Of a stretch of DNA of 22,140 nt, positions 355 to 17,400 are shown in pieces. The translations under genes and the position numbers were made by a program. Where the stretch lies: positions 1 through 22,140 of IMG/VR virus record IMGVR_UViG_3300037293_000085; one strand, given 5' to 3'. Positions within the stretch are counted from its first letter, which is position 1. Each line of letters starts with the position of its first letter. The DNA comes from a virus. Under the pieces are notes generated by a model that searched no databases, was not told where the DNA came from, and saw only the letters and a program-made list of their open reading frames with translations.

Positions 355-2775
355 CTACAATTCAAATAATTCAACTCTCCAACGATCCCGAAAGCAATCC
401 CAATTAACCGCAAGAACTAACCAATACTTTTCTTGGTACAAAACTGACTGATAAGGCCTAGGTTTTACGCGTTCTAAGGTTCCGATAATCCTGCGATTCC
501 TAATTCCTTTCAAGTTAGCTAATTCGATGCAAACTACATCCAACAAAGGCAATTCCTCAATACCATCTCTAGTCCATAACTCAGAAACTGCATCATTGTA
601 GTCTATTAATCTTATAGCTGAAGAACTCATATTAGTTTCTGAATCGCCTATAAACGTCTCAAAGTCAGGATGCACATAAGTATGCGGGCTATCTGTGACC
701 GCTCGACTTGAAATTTCAGATAATTGGAATGCGCTATTCTGCTCAATACTCAGTTTGAAATCGTCAAATGCAAGGCAAAATAAATGCCTTGGGCCTGCTG
801 TATTAATAAGTTGGTATAATCTAACCTCAAATTTACCAGTTTGAGGAACTACTACACCGCTAATCTTAACAATATTAAATTCATCTCTATTTGTTGCATC
901 AAATAAAATTATATTTTCAGTTGTACTAAAATCAAATACAAGCTCAGAAACCCGATAAAGGTAAAAATCTCCAATCTTTACCATGAACCCGACCTTATGA
1001 TCTCCGTAATTAGTAGCTGGTTCGGCAACTGGAACTGATAACAGCATAAACTTAAATGAGATGCTTACCTTATTCGCAAGCTCGTCTGCAATAATTAACG
1101 GCCTGCCTGCAATATCCTGGGTCAGGAATACAAAACTCAAATTAGGATCGTTTACACCCGCATTAGTTGTGGTTGTCCAAATTTGTAAGTAGTCTCCCGC
1201 TTGATCTGACTGATATTGAACCAAAGCAGTTTCACCATCGGGCCTCCTGTTTGGCTGACTTATTTCACGTGACTTTGAATAACCCCAATAGCGCAACCTG
1301 TAAACATCGCCTCCGATTGGAAGCCACTCATCAACTGCAAATTTAGCTTCATAAACCGCTCCCTCTGTCTGTACGAAAAGTTTTCCTAGTTTTAAAATTG
1401 AGGTGAAAGAAGTAAATACCCTTCGAGCTGTGCGCTGAGGTAAATTGATACTGCAATCAATAGTAAGATTATTATTAACAATCAAAGGACCATCTAAAGT
1501 AGCGTCTGATTTATAAGTAAAACCCAAAGATTGAGATTGATTTAGGTCCGGTGTTCTTACTATCCAAAACTCATCTTCGTACAAAAAAACCCGACATTGA
1601 AATGGATTTAAAATCCTTTCTAGTGTTTCTTTAACATACAGAAAATTATTTTCTACTGAGCCATTATTTGAAAACTTGACCACTTCGCCATCAGTAAAAA
1701 CTGAGTTATCAGGTGTTACAAATTGCTCAAATAATCCCTGATCCCGATCCATTCTTTTTTCGTGAATGTTGCAAATGATATTCACATCCCGAAACTCTTT
1801 ATACGATTGATTAAGCGACCCAACCAAAGCAGAACTAGCCGGATTATTTGCAATTATAGGCCAAATATTCCTTTGGCATCTAATAGATTCAAATCCCTTT
1901 ATCCCATCGGTAGCCGTGAATGTTTGTAGCTGCTTACCTGCTTTGTCCAATGTATCTAAGAAATCAGCATTTATGAAACCAGTCCAGAAAATAACACCCG
2001 CATCTTTTAAAACTACTTTCCAGTCCCGATTACCACCAATCAAAAATTCATCAAATTGATTCACCGTTCCTGCAATCGTAAAATCGACAGTTGACCCGAT
2101 AACCACGTCCAAAGGATCGGCTCCAAAATTTCCAAAACTGTAAAAAATAGATTCAACTTCCAATAAACTAGAATCTCCATCGTAACCATCCTTAAATATC
2201 TCAATACGAATACATCTTGCAGTTGTTCCTGTATTCTGCAAAAACTCAGAAAAGTATTTTAATTGATAGTTTGAAACAGGAGCCGAAGCACCCTCCGCCT
2301 CTAATGTTAAAATAGATGTTTGACTAGGCATTTGAAATGTAAATGATGCTAAACTTGAAATAAAATTTCCATTTAGCCTCCATAGATAATTAGACCATCC
2401 AGGATCCAAAATTACCGAAACATTAACCGTACTACCCGACGATAATGTGATCGGATTTAGTGAAGATGAGTTTATTAATATTGATCCTGAACCTTTTATG
2501 AAATCTGAAAATAGCTCATAGTCCTGAGCTAAAACCGTAAAAACTTCAACCTGCAACAATGAAGCTTCTGAAGGCATTAAAAATGAAAAAGATCCAACAC
2601 CAGAAATAAAGGAACCGTTTAAAGAAGATGTAATATTTGTAAACGAACCATTTGGAGTTATGATTACATTTACCGTAGATCCTTCTTCAATTAATTGGCC
2701 TTGAAAAGTGGATCCATTTATTTCAATAGATCCACTACCTGAAGTAAATTCATTATTAAGCTGATAAGTAGCCAT
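355..2775 (-). CDS. Large tail-tip/baseplate-like protein with two N-terminal beta repeats
   Basis: This 806-residue protein follows the tape measure gene with a TAATG overlap. Residues about 4-83 and 86-165 are a tandem duplication: each has GSGSI...GSTVNV...LNGxFIS...SFxFxMPS, resembling InlB-type divergent B-repeats, and a third copy starts at about 170 but diverges. From about 180 the protein has the look of Bacteroidota phage tail proteins with a hub-like beta domain: WKVVLKDAGVIFWTGFI (about 250) and TATDGIKGF (about 285). The C-terminal half is long and beta-rich with no recognised enzymatic motif. By position it should be part of the distal tail (tail-associated or baseplate hub) and contact the cell surface. 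The tail assignment is secure from context; the exact structural role is inferred. Confidence 0.75.
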   Translation of the reverse strand: MATYQLNNEFTSGSGSIEINGSTFQGQLIEEGSTVNVIITPNGSFTNITSSLNGSFISGVGSFSFLMPSEASLLQVEVFTVLAQDYELFSDFIKGSGSILINSSSLNPITLSSGSTVNVSVILDPGWSNYLWRLNGNFISSLASFTFQMPSQTSILTLEAEGASAPVSNYQLKYFSEFLQNTGTTARCIRIEIFKDGYDGDSSLLEVESIFYSFGNFGADPLDVVIGSTVDFTIAGTVNQFDEFLIGGNRDWKVVLKDAGVIFWTGFINADFLDTLDKAGKQLQTFTATDGIKGFESIRCQRNIWPIIANNPASSALVGSLNQSYKEFRDVNIICNIHEKRMDRDQGLFEQFVTPDNSVFTDGEVVKFSNNGSVENNFLYVKETLERILNPFQCRVFLYEDEFWIVRTPDLNQSQSLGFTYKSDATLDGPLIVNNNLTIDCSINLPQRTARRVFTSFTSILKLGKLFVQTEGAVYEAKFAVDEWLPIGGDVYRLRYWGYSKSREISQPNRRPDGETALVQYQSDQAGDYLQIWTTTTNAGVNDPNLSFVFLTQDIAGRPLIIADELANKVSISFKFMLLSVPVAEPATNYGDHKVGFMVKIGDFYLYRVSELVFDFSTTENIILFDATNRDEFNIVKISGVVVPQTGKFEVRLYQLINTAGPRHLFCLAFDDFKLSIEQNSAFQLSEISSRAVTDSPHTYVHPDFETFIGDSETNMSSSAIRLIDYNDAVSELWTRDGIEELPLLDVVCIELANLKGIRNRRIIGTLERVKPRPYQSVLYQEKYWLVLAVNWDCFRDRWRVELFEL

Positions 2776-4712
2776 TAATTTTTCCTGTTTTGTCCCTGTG
2801 CCAATGCAAACCCTATTGCCTCGCCTGTAATTTCTCCTACAACCTCAATTTTAAAAGACCTGAAAGGATCAAAAGAATTAGACCCGGATCCCGTGAACGA
2901 ACCGCCCGAACCGCCCGCGCCAACACCTGAAGAGCCCGAACCGCCACCTCCGCCAAATCCTCTATTTCCTATTGACCCAATCGCTCCAGATATTGCAATT
3001 AAGGCTATACCAGCAGCGATTGCAAGAGGAGCCGCTCCTATTGCCGTAAAAGGATTTGTTAATGCCAGTGATAATTTTGCAAATGACATACCCGCAAACC
3101 CAAAAGCAATTAATTGTTTCCCAAATTCGCCTAAAAAACCTGCAAACGAATTTATTAATGAGCTGCCAATCGCCTCAATAACATTACCGCCATTGGCAAG
3201 TGCCGCCCCGATCGCCAATGAAAAATTTTCAATAGAGTCAGGAACGTTATTCCTAAACGTATCAGTAATACTTGCCACCAATCCCTTAACTCTTTCTTCA
3301 AATGTTGGGATCTCTTTGTCTAAAACATCGGCATATCCTTCTAATAAATCTTTTATAAAAGCTTCAAAATCAATTACGTTTGGGAATATTTTTTCTAAAG
3401 AAAGACCCGGAGCACCCGCCACTGCCTTGGCTAGGTTTGCATTTGCTAGATTAAACTGAGCCGCAAAGTCTAATCCCGTTCCTGTTCCATCTATTTTTTT
3501 AGGACTAAAAGCAGCATTAAAATCTGTTTGGGCGATATTAGTAGTACTTACCGCTTTTGGCGCATTAGCTCTGAGTTTCTGAATCCTAGCTAAATTAGCG
3601 GCTGTTTTCGCTAGTTCGTCGTTTAGTTTTTGTTGCTCAGTGGTGAGGGGAACGGCCTTATTTGCTGTAATTAGCAGCTGAACACCGTAAGCCTCTATCG
3701 CATCTAGCGTGTCTAGTAATGCGATACTACCTTTACTAGAGCTTCCTGCCAATTCTCTGAAAGAAGCAGCCGTACCATCTACTGCTCTTTTAATAGCTTC
3801 CTGATTGGTTAATCCTGGTATTTTTTTTAATAGGGTTTGAATTAGTCCATCTATTTCATTCTTTGTTTCTTGGATTTCATCACCTAGTTGAATAGACTCA
3901 ACCTCTTTCTTTAGGTCCTTGACTCCCTTTATAGCCGATGTGGCAAGCGAAGTGAAATTATTTAACCAGTCTAAAGTAGCTACAAAGGCTCCCGATGTTT
4001 GGTTTCCTATTGCCAACTTAACACCATCAATATTATCTCCAAGATTAGACATTTTACCGCCCAAAGTTTCGGATATTTTAGCCATCGACCCCGAAACCCC
4101 CTCAGCATTACCGAGACCGACCACGTAACCCTGTAAAGCCTCAGCAGTATTTTTAACTTTTGTTTCAACGCCTTTGAAGGTGAATATTACGTTATCGCCT
4201 GACTTCTTGGCCCGTATTCCAAATTCCTTCAATCGCTCAAATTCCCCTACCTGAGCATCAATAACCGCCTCGGCTAACTGGTCAAATGATTTTCCCGTAC
4301 TGGATGCAAGATCTCCTAATTGCCTTAATTCCCCGATAGTCGGTTTGAATCCCTGATTTGCCAATTTTACGAAAGCCCCCGTTAATTCATCAACTGCAAA
4401 AGGAGTGACAGATGCAAACTTTGTAATTTGAGCTAATGCTAGTTGCGCTTCCGATTCACTGCCTAGCGTATTTGAAAGGATAGCCTCAAATTTCTGAAAC
4501 TTTGCAGTTGTGTCTAGCACTGCTTTGCCAAAACTAATTACGGCACCAATGGAAAAGGCAGCCGCAATTCCCGAAAGAGCGGAAACCGCCAACGCATTCA
4601 AACGACCAAAGCTTCGCCCTGTGTCCGATAGGTTTCGGTCCGTTTCTCTGAGCCGCCTAGTTAACTGGCTGGTGTTGGCTCCTATTTCTACGTCAATTCT
4701 AGGATTTGACAT
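2775..4712 (-). CDS. Tail tape measure protein
   Basis: At 645 residues this is a short tape measure protein, which sets tail length and is threaded through the tube. Residues about 85-190 carry the conserved tape measure domain (TPFAVDELTGAFVKLANQGF, then LGDLASSTGKSFDQLAEAV and FERLKEFGIRAKKSGDNVIF). A helical central part follows. Near residues 520-580 are hydrophobic segments (FGKQLIAFGFAGMSFAKLSL, LAIAAGIALIAISGAI) of the type thought to insert in the host membrane. A Gly/Ser-rich linker at about 585-615 precedes the short C-terminal tail. It overlaps the upstream chaperone-T-like frame by 14 nt and the downstream tail gene by 1 nt (TAATG). Using the usual rough 0.15 nm per residue, the tail would be near 100 nm. 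Confidence 0.93.
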   Translation of the reverse strand: MSNPRIDVEIGANTSQLTRRLRETDRNLSDTGRSFGRLNALAVSALSGIAAAFSIGAVISFGKAVLDTTAKFQKFEAILSNTLGSESEAQLALAQITKFASVTPFAVDELTGAFVKLANQGFKPTIGELRQLGDLASSTGKSFDQLAEAVIDAQVGEFERLKEFGIRAKKSGDNVIFTFKGVETKVKNTAEALQGYVVGLGNAEGVSGSMAKISETLGGKMSNLGDNIDGVKLAIGNQTSGAFVATLDWLNNFTSLATSAIKGVKDLKKEVESIQLGDEIQETKNEIDGLIQTLLKKIPGLTNQEAIKRAVDGTAASFRELAGSSSKGSIALLDTLDAIEAYGVQLLITANKAVPLTTEQQKLNDELAKTAANLARIQKLRANAPKAVSTTNIAQTDFNAAFSPKKIDGTGTGLDFAAQFNLANANLAKAVAGAPGLSLEKIFPNVIDFEAFIKDLLEGYADVLDKEIPTFEERVKGLVASITDTFRNNVPDSIENFSLAIGAALANGGNVIEAIGSSLINSFAGFLGEFGKQLIAFGFAGMSFAKLSLALTNPFTAIGAAPLAIAAGIALIAISGAIGSIGNRGFGGGGGSGSSGVGAGGSGGSFTGSGSNSFDPFRSFKIEVVGEITGEAIGFALAQGQNRKN

Positions 4713-4995
4713 TCTTGAATTTATTTACTGTTTCCAATGTTTTTCTAGCATTCTCGTAATCTTTGGGTTCTGACCAATTAATTTCCTCTTTCTCATCCCA
4801 AGAAAAAGGAATTTCTTTTGAAATATTATAAGACTTTGGAGCGTAAGGGGAAACCATTAGCCCTACAAATCTCCTGTCAAGTTCCATTTTTTCTTTTATG
4901 TCGATTTCATGACCGTAGACCAACATATCAATTTCAGAATTTGACAAAATAAAAAGGTCTTGATAAGGGATTTTTAACCGCCCAACCAAGACCAT
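4699..4995 (-). CDS. Tail assembly chaperone, T-like part (expressed by -1 frameshift)
   Basis: This frame lies between tail tube/chaperone and tape measure genes, the position of gpT in lambda-type tails. The first ATG (4995) gives 98 residues, but the frame is open further upstream without a stop and meets the preceding gene at an A_AAA_AAG slippery heptamer at 5025-5031. The residues encoded before the ATG (VEINTIREYF) continue smoothly into MVLVGRLKIPYQDLFILS, and no clear ribosome binding site precedes 4995. The likely product is therefore a fusion of about 222 residues with the upstream gene rather than a separate protein. It contains LSNSEIDMLVYGHEID and an acidic C-terminus (SWDEKEEINWSEPKDY). 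It overlaps the tape measure start by 14 nt. Independent initiation at 4995 remains possible. Confidence 0.8.
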   Translation of the reverse strand: MVLVGRLKIPYQDLFILSNSEIDMLVYGHEIDIKEKMELDRRFVGLMVSPYAPKSYNISKEIPFSWDEKEEINWSEPKDYENARKTLETVNKFKNVKS

Positions 4996-5021
4996 AAAAT
5001 ATTCTCTAATTGTGTTTATTT

Positions 5022-5366
5022 CTACTTTTTTTTTGGAGTATTAGCAGTCTCATTTAATTGTTTAGTCAATTTATCAAGCTCCAAAACAATATTCATTTCA
5101 GCATCCAATAAATTACCCAAGTCTATAAATTCCTGCCCGTCTAAAAATAGCTGAAACTGATCTAAGCTATATTCTGCTTTTACAGAATCTTTTAGGCATC
5201 CCATCAAGTAGCATTTGTGAACTAATACGTGCCAATGTTTGTAAGTCATTCCCTTACTTATAATTTGAATCCAAGTTAATCCAAAATACGCCTCCCATTC
5301 ACCAATAGCCCCTTTATTGAGAAAAAAAGCAAGTTCGCCCAGTCCAGTTATGTTAAATCTAATCAT
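5022..5366 (-). CDS. Tail assembly chaperone, G-like protein
   Basis: This 114-residue protein follows the tail tube gene with a 2-nt gap and precedes the tape measure region, the place of the gpG-type tail assembly chaperone that coats the tape measure before tube polymerisation. It is mostly helical and has no recognisable enzyme motif. Its last codons are CCA AAA AAA AAG TAG, so it ends in PKKK on a 9-A run containing a zero-frame A_AAA_AAG heptamer immediately before the stop. A -1 slip there would fuse it to the 4699-4995 frame. The function is assigned from gene order plus the slippery site; the sequence itself shows no family I recognise. Confidence 0.82.
   Translation of the reverse strand: MIRFNITGLGELAFFLNKGAIGEWEAYFGLTWIQIISKGMTYKHWHVLVHKCYLMGCLKDSVKAEYSLDQFQLFLDGQEFIDLGNLLDAEMNIVLELDKLTKQLNETANTPKKK
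5025..5034 (-). promoter_or_regulatory. Programmed -1 ribosomal frameshift site (A_AAA_AAG)
   Basis: On the minus strand nine A residues (5034-5026) are followed by G (5025) and then the stop TAG (5024-5022). In the frame of the upstream gene the last codons are AAA AAG, giving the heptamer A AAA AAG. A one-base slip gives AAA then GTA GAA ATA AAC and enters the 4699-4995 frame with ten sense codons before its first ATG (5025 and 4995 are 30 nt apart, the same frame). This matches the layout of G/GT tail chaperone frameshifts. No obvious stimulatory hairpin was identified downstream by eye. Confidence 0.82.
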
Positions 5367-5368
5367 AA

Positions 5369-5782
5369 TTAAGATGCTGTTACGACCTCTGGAACACCTG
5401 AAATATCAAAGGTTCCCGAAAATGTGATTTGTGTGTTTCGTTCCGCTGTAAGCTCCAAAGCATTTAGCTGAGAATCGAAAAGGAAATACTTTTGACCCAC
5501 TGTTTTGTCTCCAAAGATAGTAGTAAAAACTTTTCCTAAATCGTCGTACAAATCGAAATAGGAATAAGCTATAGCCGGATCGTTGCCAAAATCAATATCT
5601 CCAGTAAAGGCAAAAGAACCGGACTTATCTCCACCTTCAAGCCTTACGCCCCAATCTCCAGAGCAGTTGTTTCGTACTGTAATACCTTCATTAGTCAACG
5701 ATAGCGAACCCGAAACCTGACAAACCACAGGCAAGCCCCTCCACTGAAATACAAAAGATTTACCTAATTTGTGTGTTGCCAT
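5369..5782 (-). CDS. Major tail tube protein
   Basis: This 137-residue protein starts MATHKLGKSFVFQWRGLPV and is beta-rich throughout, with FAFTGDIDFGNDPAI, YFLFDSQLNALELTAE and FSGTFDISGVPEV. Small tail tube proteins of long-tailed phages have this size and pattern, with a final beta strand ending in 'SGTFxxxG'. It lies between the tail terminator gene (9 nt upstream) and the assembly chaperones, which is the canonical position. It would form the stacked hexameric rings of the tail tube. The assignment combines composition and gene order; no single diagnostic motif was used. Confidence 0.82.
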   Translation of the reverse strand: MATHKLGKSFVFQWRGLPVVCQVSGSLSLTNEGITVRNNCSGDWGVRLEGGDKSGSFAFTGDIDFGNDPAIAYSYFDLYDDLGKVFTTIFGDKTVGQKYFLFDSQLNALELTAERNTQITFSGTFDISGVPEVVTAS

Positions 5783-10020: not shown

Positions 10021-10335
10021 TTACTTTATAAGTTCTGCGATTAGTTCTTCTGATCGCTTTTCTATTTTGGCTAGTGTTTCTTTGGCTTTTTCCCAAAAAC
10101 AATTACGTATTTTTAGGCTAAACTTTACACCTAAATATTTCGATATGTCATCATAAGGCATACCCTCAGGGTTCCTAGGGATTGAGCTGCACTGAACACC
10201 ACAAGCGCAAGTCACCCAGTTTCCCGATAAATAAATGGCTAATTTGTGTTCTTCCGATCTTTTTTCAGGAGGATTTTCAAGAAACGCATTCCAGTCAAAT
10301 GTTTTCTTTTCCCATGTTTCTGCGTAGGTTTTCAT
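10021..10335 (-). CDS. Hypothetical CACG-motif protein, second tandem paralogue
   Basis: This 104-residue protein aligns without gaps to the gene immediately upstream, which is also 104 residues, at about 56% identity. Shared blocks are the start (MKxYAET), FDWNxFLxNPPE, WVTCACGxxCxxIPR at about 40-54, LGVxF, and the end (IEKRSEELI). The three cysteines (C43, C45, C49) could bind a metal, but there is no fourth ligand in a standard spacing. It overlaps the upstream copy by 4 nt (ATGA). Family not recognised. Its place between a MuF gene and the prohead protease, between a promoter-like site and a terminator, suggests an accessory gene and not a virion part, though a head-related role cannot be excluded. 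Confidence 0.75.
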   Translation of the reverse strand: MKTYAETWEKKTFDWNAFLENPPEKRSEEHKLAIYLSGNWVTCACGVQCSSIPRNPEGMPYDDISKYLGVKFSLKIRNCFWEKAKETLAKIEKRSEELIAELIK

Positions 10336-10646
10336 TTTGTTAGTTCAAATATTAGTTCTTCTGATCGCTTTTCAATTAGCCAAAGAGTGTTTTTTGCGTT
10401 TTGCCATTCACCTTCCTTAACTGAGTAATAAAAATTAACGCCCAAACTTTCTAAATCCGTATCACTAGGACGGCCAATCGGGCTCCTTGGTATAATATCG
10501 CAAAGGTTTCCACAAGCGCACGTAACCCATTCGCCCGCTAAATCACAGGCACGGTAGTGTTCGATTGAAAGATATTCAGGAGGATTGTCCAGAAAATTAT
10601 TCCAATCAAATGCTCTCTCTCCTTTTGTTTCTGCGTAGTTTTTCAT
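10332..10646 (-). CDS. Hypothetical CACG-motif protein, first tandem paralogue
   Basis: This is the upstream copy of the duplicated pair. The frame can be extended to a TTG at 10673, but ATG 10646 gives 104 residues, aligns exactly with the start of the paralogue, is preceded by AGAGCGATT, and leaves the -7-like TATATTTG (10678-10671) upstream. I therefore chose 10646. It carries FDWNNFLDNPPE, AGEWVTCACGNLCDIIPRSP and the conserved end LIEKRSEELIFELTK. The Cys triad of the WVTCACGxxC motif is kept in both copies, which points to a structural or metal-binding need. No family recognised and no function is proposed. Confidence 0.75.
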   Translation of the reverse strand: MKNYAETKGERAFDWNNFLDNPPEYLSIEHYRACDLAGEWVTCACGNLCDIIPRSPIGRPSDTDLESLGVNFYYSVKEGEWQNAKNTLWLIEKRSEELIFELTK

Positions 10647-10670
10647 AATCGCTCTATATTTAAGTGAATC

Positions 10671-10678
10671 CAAATATA
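10671..10678 (-). promoter_or_regulatory. -7-like element upstream of CACG gene pair
   Basis: The minus strand reads TATATTTG, matching TAnnTTTG, 24 nt before the preferred ATG at 10646. No TTTG was found at the -33 spacing. Directly upstream (10679-10698) is TAATATTAACTATTTTG; its 16-nt core TAATATTAACTATTTT also occurs, in the opposite orientation, in the promoter-like repeat at 15852. The site lies in the 56-nt gap after the MuF stop. Confidence 0.35.
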
Positions 10679-10702: not shown

Positions 10703-12037
10703 TCACTCTGAAGGAAATTCTAAAATGTCACATAAAAAGAACTCTGGCAAGTCAAGAAACGATTTGCTGTAATCCCTTATAACCCCTCCGAAAATATCAG
10801 CGTCTTTCTCCCAAGGTAAATTTATATACTTTTGGAAGTTCTTTTGAACGGTTGCATAAGCTTTACTCCTTAACCCTTTATTTATAAGATTGTATTTAGT
10901 TATTGATATGTATGGCTTATTTTCCCAATGAATGAAGCCATCTTCAATATAAAGACCCATTTTTCTATTTTGCATAATATGTCTTAATTCATGCCTAATT
11001 GTTCCTTTAATGTCACTTCCAAACGCGTAAATATTTACGTCGTTACCTAGTTTAGATCCGCCATCTTTGGAAGGAACCCAACCGACTGAACCATTAGAAC
11101 CGTTCCTACCATTATAGAAGTTGAATTTAAGCTTCTCGTTTAAACCTAATTCAGACATTGTATTTCTAATGACTTCTTCGTACTGCTGACCAGCTAAAAC
11201 ATTACCTGAGATACTAAAGTTACCTAATTCCCTTGTATCTAATAATGTACTAGGTTTTAAAGCGATTGCAGCTCTCTCAGATAAGGCCTCTGGAAATCTT
11301 TCCCGAACAAAGTCCTCTGTTACAATAGCAATAGAACACCCGCAATTTATCACTTGTCTCGCCACGTCTTTACCCCCTTCGCCTCGTGCCGAATTACCCG
11401 GAGAATCTAATTTAACCCCTTCAATATTGAAAAATTGACTTTTTGGAATCGGTTTCCCCTGTGCTGAAATATGGCTTTGCCGTGGTTCGCGTCTTGCACC
11501 TGAGTGAATCCAAAGTTTGTACATCTTTAGTCCTGTGACTAACTCAAAGTCATCACCTGATCGCATTAACCCCATGTTATTAGCTCGTGTTCCCTCTGTG
11601 ATCGCTATGGCACGCGCTCTGGCTCTGCTTCCGATGGTTTCCGTTAGCAGTTGCTGAGTCTGAAATGGATTTAAACCTAATTCAATGGCCCTTTCCAGTA
11701 TTTTCCTAATCTCTAGTCTGGTCCCATTATTTACGTTTGTGATAAGACCGCCTAAGTTCTCACGAACCCAAACGCCAATCCAAGCTTTCCAGGTATTAAG
11801 AAACAAATCGCTCATTTCAAAGTCCTTAGTTTTCTGCATCGCACGGATCTGGAAATAACCCCTTCGGGCCGCATCGGGAAAAACTTTCTGATAGTATTCC
11901 ACATAAGCCGAAGTCATTAACCTTTCATCGAAAAAATCAGCCTGCGAAATAAGGGTTTTAAAAAATAATTCTTCGCCAAACTTTTGGTATTGCCTGTTAG
12001 CTTTTTTGTTCTCGCGTCTGATCTGAGCTATATTCAT
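10703..12037 (-). CDS. MuF-type minor head protein with C-terminal HExxH zincin-like domain
   Basis: This 444-residue protein follows the portal gene with a 1-nt TAATG overlap, the usual place for MuF/SPP1 gp7-like minor head proteins. Residues about 100-245 are the MuF domain: GSRARARAIAITEGTRANNM, YKLWIHSGARREPRQSHISA, QGKPIPKSQFFNIEGV and a VINCGCSI end. The C-terminal ~190 residues are not needed for MuF. They contain KGTIRHELRHIMQ with an HELRH (HExxH) motif at 349-353, and LPWEKDADIFG at 408-416 with E410/D412/D414 as candidate third ligands. This is the pattern of a zinc metallopeptidase. MuF proteins with C-terminal effector or enzyme domains are known; whether this one is injected, processes head proteins or acts on the host is unknown. 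Confidence 0.88.
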   Translation of the reverse strand: MNIAQIRRENKKANRQYQKFGEELFFKTLISQADFFDERLMTSAYVEYYQKVFPDAARRGYFQIRAMQKTKDFEMSDLFLNTWKAWIGVWVRENLGGLITNVNNGTRLEIRKILERAIELGLNPFQTQQLLTETIGSRARARAIAITEGTRANNMGLMRSGDDFELVTGLKMYKLWIHSGARREPRQSHISAQGKPIPKSQFFNIEGVKLDSPGNSARGEGGKDVARQVINCGCSIAIVTEDFVRERFPEALSERAAIALKPSTLLDTRELGNFSISGNVLAGQQYEEVIRNTMSELGLNEKLKFNFYNGRNGSNGSVGWVPSKDGGSKLGNDVNIYAFGSDIKGTIRHELRHIMQNRKMGLYIEDGFIHWENKPYISITKYNLINKGLRSKAYATVQKNFQKYINLPWEKDADIFGGVIRDYSKSFLDLPEFFLCDILEFPSE

Positions 12038-16191: not shown

Positions 16192-16310
16192 TTCCTCCTG
16201 TATTCATGCCTCATTTCGCATTTATGAGATGGACTTTTTAAACTGGAGCAACTGGAAAATATGGCTACCAGTATTAGAGTGATTATTCCTATTTTTATAA
16301 ATCTAGTCAT
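16188..16310 (-). CDS. 40-aa predicted lipoprotein
   Basis: A 40-residue frame starts MTRFIKIGIITLILVAIFSS followed by CSSLKSP and ends CEMRHEYRRK. The N-terminus has two positive residues, a hydrophobic core and a lipobox-like FSSC with Cys21 as the candidate lipidated residue (Phe at -3 is unusual). The remaining 20 residues are polar and basic. It overlaps the upstream gene by 8 nt and the downstream lipoprotein by ATGA, and its end carries the AGGAGG used by that gene. Two adjacent small lipoproteins with coupled translation recall nested spanin genes, but the inner-membrane spanin partner is not seen. Confidence 0.6.
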   Translation of the reverse strand: MTRFIKIGIITLILVAIFSSCSSLKSPSHKCEMRHEYRRK

Positions 16311-16719
16311 TTTCAAGTTCTCTTTTAATTAACTCTATTAGTTGTTCTTGCTTGGCTTGAATCTGTAAAATACCCAAGTTAACACAAAAATATACGCTTG
16401 TAAAGCCATTTTCATACACTTTACTTAGATTAAAATCTGTAATCTCAACCTCGTGATGAAGCTCAAAAGTAACCGAACAAGTCATTCCATCCTTAGCAGC
16501 TTGTTTGTTTAGTAGCTCAATAAGCTCCTCAGTTGATAGTTCTTTTTCTACTCGCTTCCATTCGTTAGAAATTGAATCTGATCCAGAGGCCCAAAAAGAA
16601 ACTGCCCTGACTCCCATTTTCGCACTATCAGGATATATATTTCCCATGATAGGAATGGAATTTGCGTACCCATTTGCCTGCTTTTGTGTGCCTACGTACT
16701 CATAATATTTAGTTTCCAT
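16303..16719 (-). CDS. Hypothetical protein with shared N-terminal module
   Basis: This 138-residue protein has an N-terminal ~57-residue module (KYYEYVGTQKQANGY, PIMGNIYPDS, VRAVSFWASGSD, EWKRVEK) that is also found as almost the whole of the 67-aa gene at 17197-17400. The C-terminal ~75 residues are different: a helix (LSTEELIELLNKQAAKDG), a beta strand set and a final helix with QAKQEQLIELIKRELEN. The start is preceded by GAGGAGCGAA and overlaps the upstream gene by 11 nt. No family recognised; likely cytoplasmic, since there is no signal or TM segment. Confidence 0.7.
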   Translation of the reverse strand: METKYYEYVGTQKQANGYANSIPIMGNIYPDSAKMGVRAVSFWASGSDSISNEWKRVEKELSTEELIELLNKQAAKDGMTCSVTFELHHEVEITDFNLSKVYENGFTSVYFCVNLGILQIQAKQEQLIELIKRELEND

Positions 16720-17196: not shown

Positions 17197-17400
17197 TTAT
17201 TTATTGTTTGGTTTGTCCACTAATTTCCATTCTGAGCCAATTTGAAGATCAGTCATACCCGCCCAATAGGCTACTGTATAGCATCCTATTGGTTCATTTT
17301 CTGAGTATATCTGATTTCTTATTGGCATTCTAAGTAAATAGGAGTCAGCATCTTCTTGACTTCCAATAAACTGGTAGTACTTAATTTCATCGTTTTTCAT
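17197..17400 (-). CDS. Small hypothetical protein (single copy of shared module)
   Basis: This 67-residue protein consists almost only of the module also forming the N-terminus of the 138-aa protein at 16303-16719: KYYQFIGSQEDADSY, PIRNQIYSEN, YTVAYWAGMTD and EWKLVDK. Its ATG is preceded by AAAGCGAT, a pre-start motif shared with three other accessory genes. It overlaps the upstream gene by 4 nt. It lacks membrane or signal segments. Function not recognised; the two copies suggest an ancient duplication in this operon. Confidence 0.68.
   Translation of the reverse strand: MKNDEIKYYQFIGSQEDADSYLLRMPIRNQIYSENEPIGCYTVAYWAGMTDLQIGSEWKLVDKPNNK

Follow-up and report, generated by a model that had tools for sequence, protein, structure and literature searches.

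The window, by which we mean the whole analysed stretch of 22,140 nucleotides (IMG/VR virus record IMGVR_UViG_3300037293_000085), carries a tail gene module on its minus strand in which two short open reading frames, here called G and T, are located between the genes of the major tail protein and the tape measure protein (Table 1). The second frame lies in the -1 phase relative to the first, with a slippery heptamer in their overlap at the end of G, as is typical for loci of the lambda G/GT type. Besides its PHROG matches the tape measure gene matches Pfam TMP_3 (2.1e-7, under the family cut-off), and its ATG overlaps the end of T. Neither window G nor window T matched a family in Pfam or PHROG, a tblastn search of phage records with G found nothing, and structure predictions (pLDDT 59.5 for T and 51.6 for G) were too poor for a fold search.

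Table 1. Features of the G/T locus and its neighbours in the window
Feature	Position	Strand	Remarks
Major tail protein, upstream neighbour of G	5369..5782	-	PHROG 1407, E 8.5e-9
G-like ORF, putative tail assembly chaperone	5022..5366	-	114 aa, zero frame; between tail tube and tape measure genes
Slippery run AAAAAAAAAG	5025..5034	-	-1 phase in all T-family relatives examined
Heptamer A_AAA_AAA	5034..5028	-	overlaps A_AAA_AAG
Heptamer A_AAA_AAG	5031..5025	-	zero frame, directly before TAG 5024..5022
Zero-frame stop TAG of G	5022..5024	-	next codon after slip site
T-like part, -1 frame after slip	4699..5025	-	108 aa and stop; frame open from 5040
Ten codons VEINTIREYF, from slip site to first ATG	4996..5025	-	residues align in distant relatives
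ATG, only candidate separate T start	4993..4995	-	its G is the first base of the hairpin
3' RNA hairpin GGUCUUGGU...AUCAAGACC	4956..4993	-	31 nt after heptamer; two compensatory pair changes in L011/L015
Tape measure protein, downstream neighbour of T	2775..4712	-	PHROG tape measure families, down to 2.6e-45

The slip site and the two frames

On the minus strand the 3' end of G reads ACT CCA AAA AAA AAG TAG, i.e. nine A at 5034..5026 followed by G. An earlier reading made from the sequence alone (the sequence-only reading) had placed a zero-frame A_AAA_AAG directly before the stop codon, ten open codons of the -1 frame before the ATG at 4995-4993, and a fusion of about 222 residues. All three statements hold: the -1 frame has no stop codon between 5040 and the TAG at 4699, and the G-T fusion would comprise 114 + 108 = 222 amino acids. 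Zero-frame A_AAA_AAA or A_AAA_AAG heptamers are rare in the window genes, with only eight occurrences in 6618 codons, two of them at the end of G. Without regard to phase and conservation, one would be expected by chance within the 19-nt overlap of the G and T frames in about 1% of cases.

Two arguments of the sequence-only reading have to be restricted. It called A_AAA_AAG the most efficient -1 heptamer known; this site is very shift-prone in E. coli (PMC5009743), and the property is documented there, not for the host of this virus, which is probably a member of the Bacteroidota, judging from the hosts of related phages and the lack of Shine-Dalgarno sequences. It also took the missing ribosome site at 4995 as support for the fusion. 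A Shine-Dalgarno sequence is indeed absent there but this carries no weight, because 26 of the 31 window genes, including G and the major tail protein gene, do not show even a 4-base match, and Bacteroidia are generally devoid of such sequences (PMC8710568). The argument was therefore rejected.

Some observations concern other genes on the same strand. The product of 10703-12037 resembles Mu F-like head proteins (Pfam PF04233, E 2e-6, just below the cut-off) and has an HExxH motif (HELRH) in its C-terminal part, where a metallopeptidase domain is possibly located. Inside the head gene cluster 10021-10335 and 10332-10673 are overlapping tandem paralogues with 56% identity, and two related small proteins (39% identity over 59 residues) are encoded at 16303-16719 and 17197-17400.

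Conservation of run and phase in related phages

About 100 loci from several protein families, with T down to approximately 25% identity, show the -1 phase together with a slippery run at the end of G. The sequence-only reading had proposed an alignment of homologous G/T regions as a check, and in this comparison both the A-run and the phase are kept in near, intermediate, Bacteroides and large IMG/VR relatives; homologues with a conserved separate start and no slippery run, which would have spoken against a frameshift, were looked for and none was seen among them. This conservation supports the view of G and T as a putative frameshift pair.

Four IMG/VR contigs encode G and T at 96-97% identity and retain run and phase throughout. 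In one of them (L004) a G-to-A substitution extends the run to A10, while total length, stop codon and phase are unchanged. Two intermediate relatives (L011/L015) have the slip site GAA AAA AAA GCG (A8), again with the -1 relation. Compared with the window (2775-5782) their tail tube protein is 96-97% identical but G and the body of the tape measure protein are different, and the T proteins of L011 and the window share 34% identity; the tape measure C-terminus is again identical over approximately the last 57 residues. Apparently a cassette of G, T and most of the tape measure gene has been swapped between near relatives, as is to be expected if chaperones must fit their own tape measure protein. 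The homology of T in L011 and in distant relatives reaches upstream of the window ATG.

Bacteroides phage Bacuni_F1 (MT635598) represents a more distant group. Its T is homologous to window T (25% identity, pairwise E 1e-7); it was found by tblastn and gave a weak match in the collection search. The gene order is that of the window, with T in the -1 frame and again an A9 run, the zero frame reading GAA AAA AAA AGT TAG and hence offering A_AAA_AAA, and there is no ATG at the start of T. In the record the two genes (gp5/gp4) are annotated as separate hypothetical proteins. Further contigs of this group from IMG/VR and from Bacteroidota genomes show the same A9 and -1 relation. In several of these loci (L025-L027, L032, L034/L035, L039) a stop codon of the T frame directly precedes the A-run and the first ATG follows only 74-155 nt past the G stop, whereas conservation of the T protein already sets in at the run. 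With a stop before the run and no nearby start codon T can hardly be read except by frameshifting, so that in these loci, to judge from their sequences, the fusion appears to be required. Bacuni_F1 T matches phrog_16333, a family of which the function is not known, and a profile comparison between window G and Bacuni_F1 G revealed no similarity. The recorded start of gp4 (L022 4953-5363) is a GTG inside G and upstream of the run, and is likely a misannotation of a frameshifted T.

In a third family (L037), for which the best 80 of 469 matching stretches were kept, all 78 scored loci (about 72-73 distinct sequences) have exactly A9 and the -1 phase; the sequence before the run is variable. Searches of Bacteroidota genomes, for which the tape measure domain or T profiles served as queries, gave additional chaperone pairs, all of them in -1 relation. 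The profile searches of 396 genomes yielded few matches. The tape measure search returned other tail modules that are useful as independent examples. Three of the additional pairs (L045, L046 and L049) have A9. In L047, the tape measure domain of which is 50% identical to that of the window, a textbook cassette is found, consisting of A_AAA_AAG with six A, an 8-nt spacer and a strong stem (z -3.9). The slip site is T_TTT_TTG in L050 and G_GGA_AAC, occurring twice, in L052.

Cellulophaga phage phi39:1 shows a different picture. In its gp19/gp20 pair (L133 3583-4309) an A8 run stands at the end of G and T follows in the +1/-2 frame instead of -1, which points to a shift of another kind or, alternatively, to a homopolymer error in the database entry. 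Most of the neighbouring genes were annotated from virion MS/MS, gp19 and gp20 were not, a hint that their products are absent from the virion.

The RNA element downstream of the run

The window RNA can form a hairpin with a 9-bp stem (4993-4985 with 4964-4956) and an additional inner stem (fold z -2.3). Across the window family and L011/L015 95% of the pair cells of this hairpin are kept, in comparison with 41-66% when the partners are slid against each other, and in the diverged relatives two pairs have changed in a compensatory manner, from U-A to G-C and from G-C to U-A. We regard this evidence for covariation as good but not overwhelming, as it derives from five distinct sequences that represent, in effect, two lineages. 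Within the window family alone the lower variation downstream of the site does not reach significance (p = 0.07), and an Rfam search found nothing near a gathering score.

The L037 family adds a second case. Here, a 13-bp hairpin begins 29 nt after the A9 run and is paired in 9/9 variants with one compensatory pair. With a synonymous diversity of 0.014, T codons 1-27 vary far less than codons 28-105 (0.331) and the end of G (0.363), with a Mann-Whitney p of 9e-11. In L053-L132 and L134-L212 the 72 nt that follow the run, around the 13-bp hairpin, are almost without synonymous variation. As conservation extends to either side of the hairpin, the latter may be part of a larger fold. A lower stem between the end of the A-run and a U-rich stretch past the hairpin, proposed by RNAalifold, was seen in few sequences only and was set aside, as was an extended lower stem in the L037 family, two pairs of which are broken in 4/9 variants. 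Such a stem would have reduced the gap between slip site and hairpin. The Bacuni_F1 group has no consistent 3' hairpin, and low variation is confined there to a few codons.

With a conserved hairpin, compensatory changes and synonymous constraint the 3' RNA element typical of -1 frameshift cassettes is present, and we infer that it stimulates slipping. Its distance is unusual: spacers mostly measure 5-9 nt, with other lengths known (PMC5009743), and those of the window (31 nt) and of the L037 family (29 nt after A9) fall outside this range. In both families an in-frame ATG is positioned 31-33 nt after A9, in the stem or at its base, and this only candidate start codon of T is within the hairpin.

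This coincidence allows a bolder reading, in which A9 and a hairpin at approximately 30 nt with an enclosed or abutting in-frame ATG constitute a new frameshift layout of Bacteroidota phages, with one structure performing two jobs. The hairpin would set the slip rate by a long-spacer contact or by a pseudoknot and, in hosts that choose start codons by their lack of structure, would at the same time block separate initiation of T. At present we consider such a layout tentative and rather unlikely.

Probable ribosomal frameshifting, its rivals and known systems

What can be read directly from the compared sequences are the phase, the slip site with its conservation, a conserved RNA element on the 3' side and the position among the tail genes. 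Together they make it probable that G and T form one tail assembly chaperone locus of the lambda G/GT type, in which a ribosomal -1 frameshift produces the fusion. Most ribosomes would stop at TAG 5024-5022 and release G with its 114 amino acids. A minority would slip back by one base on A_AAA_AAG/A_AAA_AAA and continue in the -1 frame to the 222-aa G-T fusion, a step that the downstream hairpin probably promotes while also hiding the only internal ATG. In the manner of the lambda proteins, G would form a coat on the tape measure protein, and recruitment of the tail tube protein would fall to the T part of the fusion. The ribosome as the place of slipping, the rate and the chaperone roles are our deductions, and the RNA element as well as the rival discussed next go beyond the sequence-only reading.

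The same protein could arise by transcriptional slippage, if the polymerase added one A to the A9 run, since an A10 mRNA would encode the fusion in one frame. The length of the run agrees with this: the window, the Bacuni_F1 group and all scored L037 loci have runs of exactly nine A, while a ribosome needs only six or seven, and nine is a length prone to slippage in many bacterial genomes (PMC1088944). Nevertheless about nine A or T are not found in all members. L011/L015 have A8, and the A6G, T6G and GGGAAAC sites of related or analogous tail modules (L047, L050 and L052) do not fit. Moreover, the conserved RNA 3' of the run argues for the ribosome because it has not yet been made when the polymerase slips and thus cannot act there. 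The constraint downstream of the run and the sites without an A-run in comparable modules favour ribosomal slipping, and we consider transcriptional slippage as the source of the fusion quite unlikely, although both processes could contribute.

It is very unlikely that T is made, solely or additionally, as a separate protein from the ATG at 4995, with ribosomes either reinitiating past the G stop or starting anew. The window family, L011/L015 and the L037 family all retain an in-frame ATG at this position, and the lack of a Shine-Dalgarno sequence is normal in this setting (26/31 window genes; PMC8710568). However, this ATG sits at the base of the conserved hairpin, which may prevent initiation, since Flavobacterium johnsoniae selects its start codons partly for low structure (PMC8710568). 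The Bacuni_F1 group lacks such a start, protein-level conservation extends into the frame ahead of the ATG, and separate initiation leaves the conserved slippery run and its phase unexplained. Homopolymer run-length errors are common in some sequencing methods, but an assembly error that split one uninterrupted gene by the loss of an A can practically be dismissed, because independent contigs agree, the substitution in L004 keeps length, stop and phase, and dozens of other loci are split at the same place.

With ribosomal frameshifting as the preferred explanation, the G/GT frameshift is extended to several Bacteroidota phage groups with chaperones outside the curated families, which are annotated as two unrelated hypothetical proteins as in the case of Bacuni_F1 gp5/gp4. 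A slippery run and the position before the tape measure gene allow such genes to be called by annotators even where sequence similarity is lacking. In the L037 family the ultra-conserved 72 nt after the run offer a test case for frameshift stimulation over a long spacing in bacteria that rarely use Shine-Dalgarno pairing. A literature search in open-licence papers found none that describes a G/GT frameshift for these phages.

A conserved -1 frameshift in the tail assembly chaperones of tailed phages was reportedly described by Xu, Hendrix and Duda in 2004. The slip site of lambda is G_GGA_AAG, that of the window A_AAA_AAG within an A9 run. Lambda gpG/gpGT uses the frameshift, an arrangement with wide conservation among long-tailed phages (PMC5009743). 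The window shares with lambda two ORFs between the tail tube and tape measure genes, the -1 frame of the second and a slippery heptamer at the end of the first, and some of its relatives are without a separate start; it differs in having no detectable similarity to curated chaperone families and in the 3' hairpin at a distance of 31 nt. In E. coli dnaX the spacer is short and there is a Shine-Dalgarno-like stimulator on the 5' side. The heptamer A_AAA_AAG and a 3' stem-loop are common to dnaX and the window (PMC5009743), whereas the window spacer is long and its likely host group rarely uses Shine-Dalgarno pairing. Bacuni_F1 gp5/gp4 agrees with the window in its homologous T, gene order, A9 run and -1 phase, and deviates in the zero-frame A_AAA_AAA and in the missing ATG at the T start. 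Transcriptional slippage of the Thermus dnaX type has the nine-A run in common (PMC1088944), but the 3' element of the window and the sites without an A-run in comparable modules point to the ribosome. The G/T pair of the window is most probably a new member of the known lambda G/GT arrangement with an already known frameshift device, and its less ordinary part is the conserved RNA hairpin about 30 bases downstream that buries the only alternative start codon.
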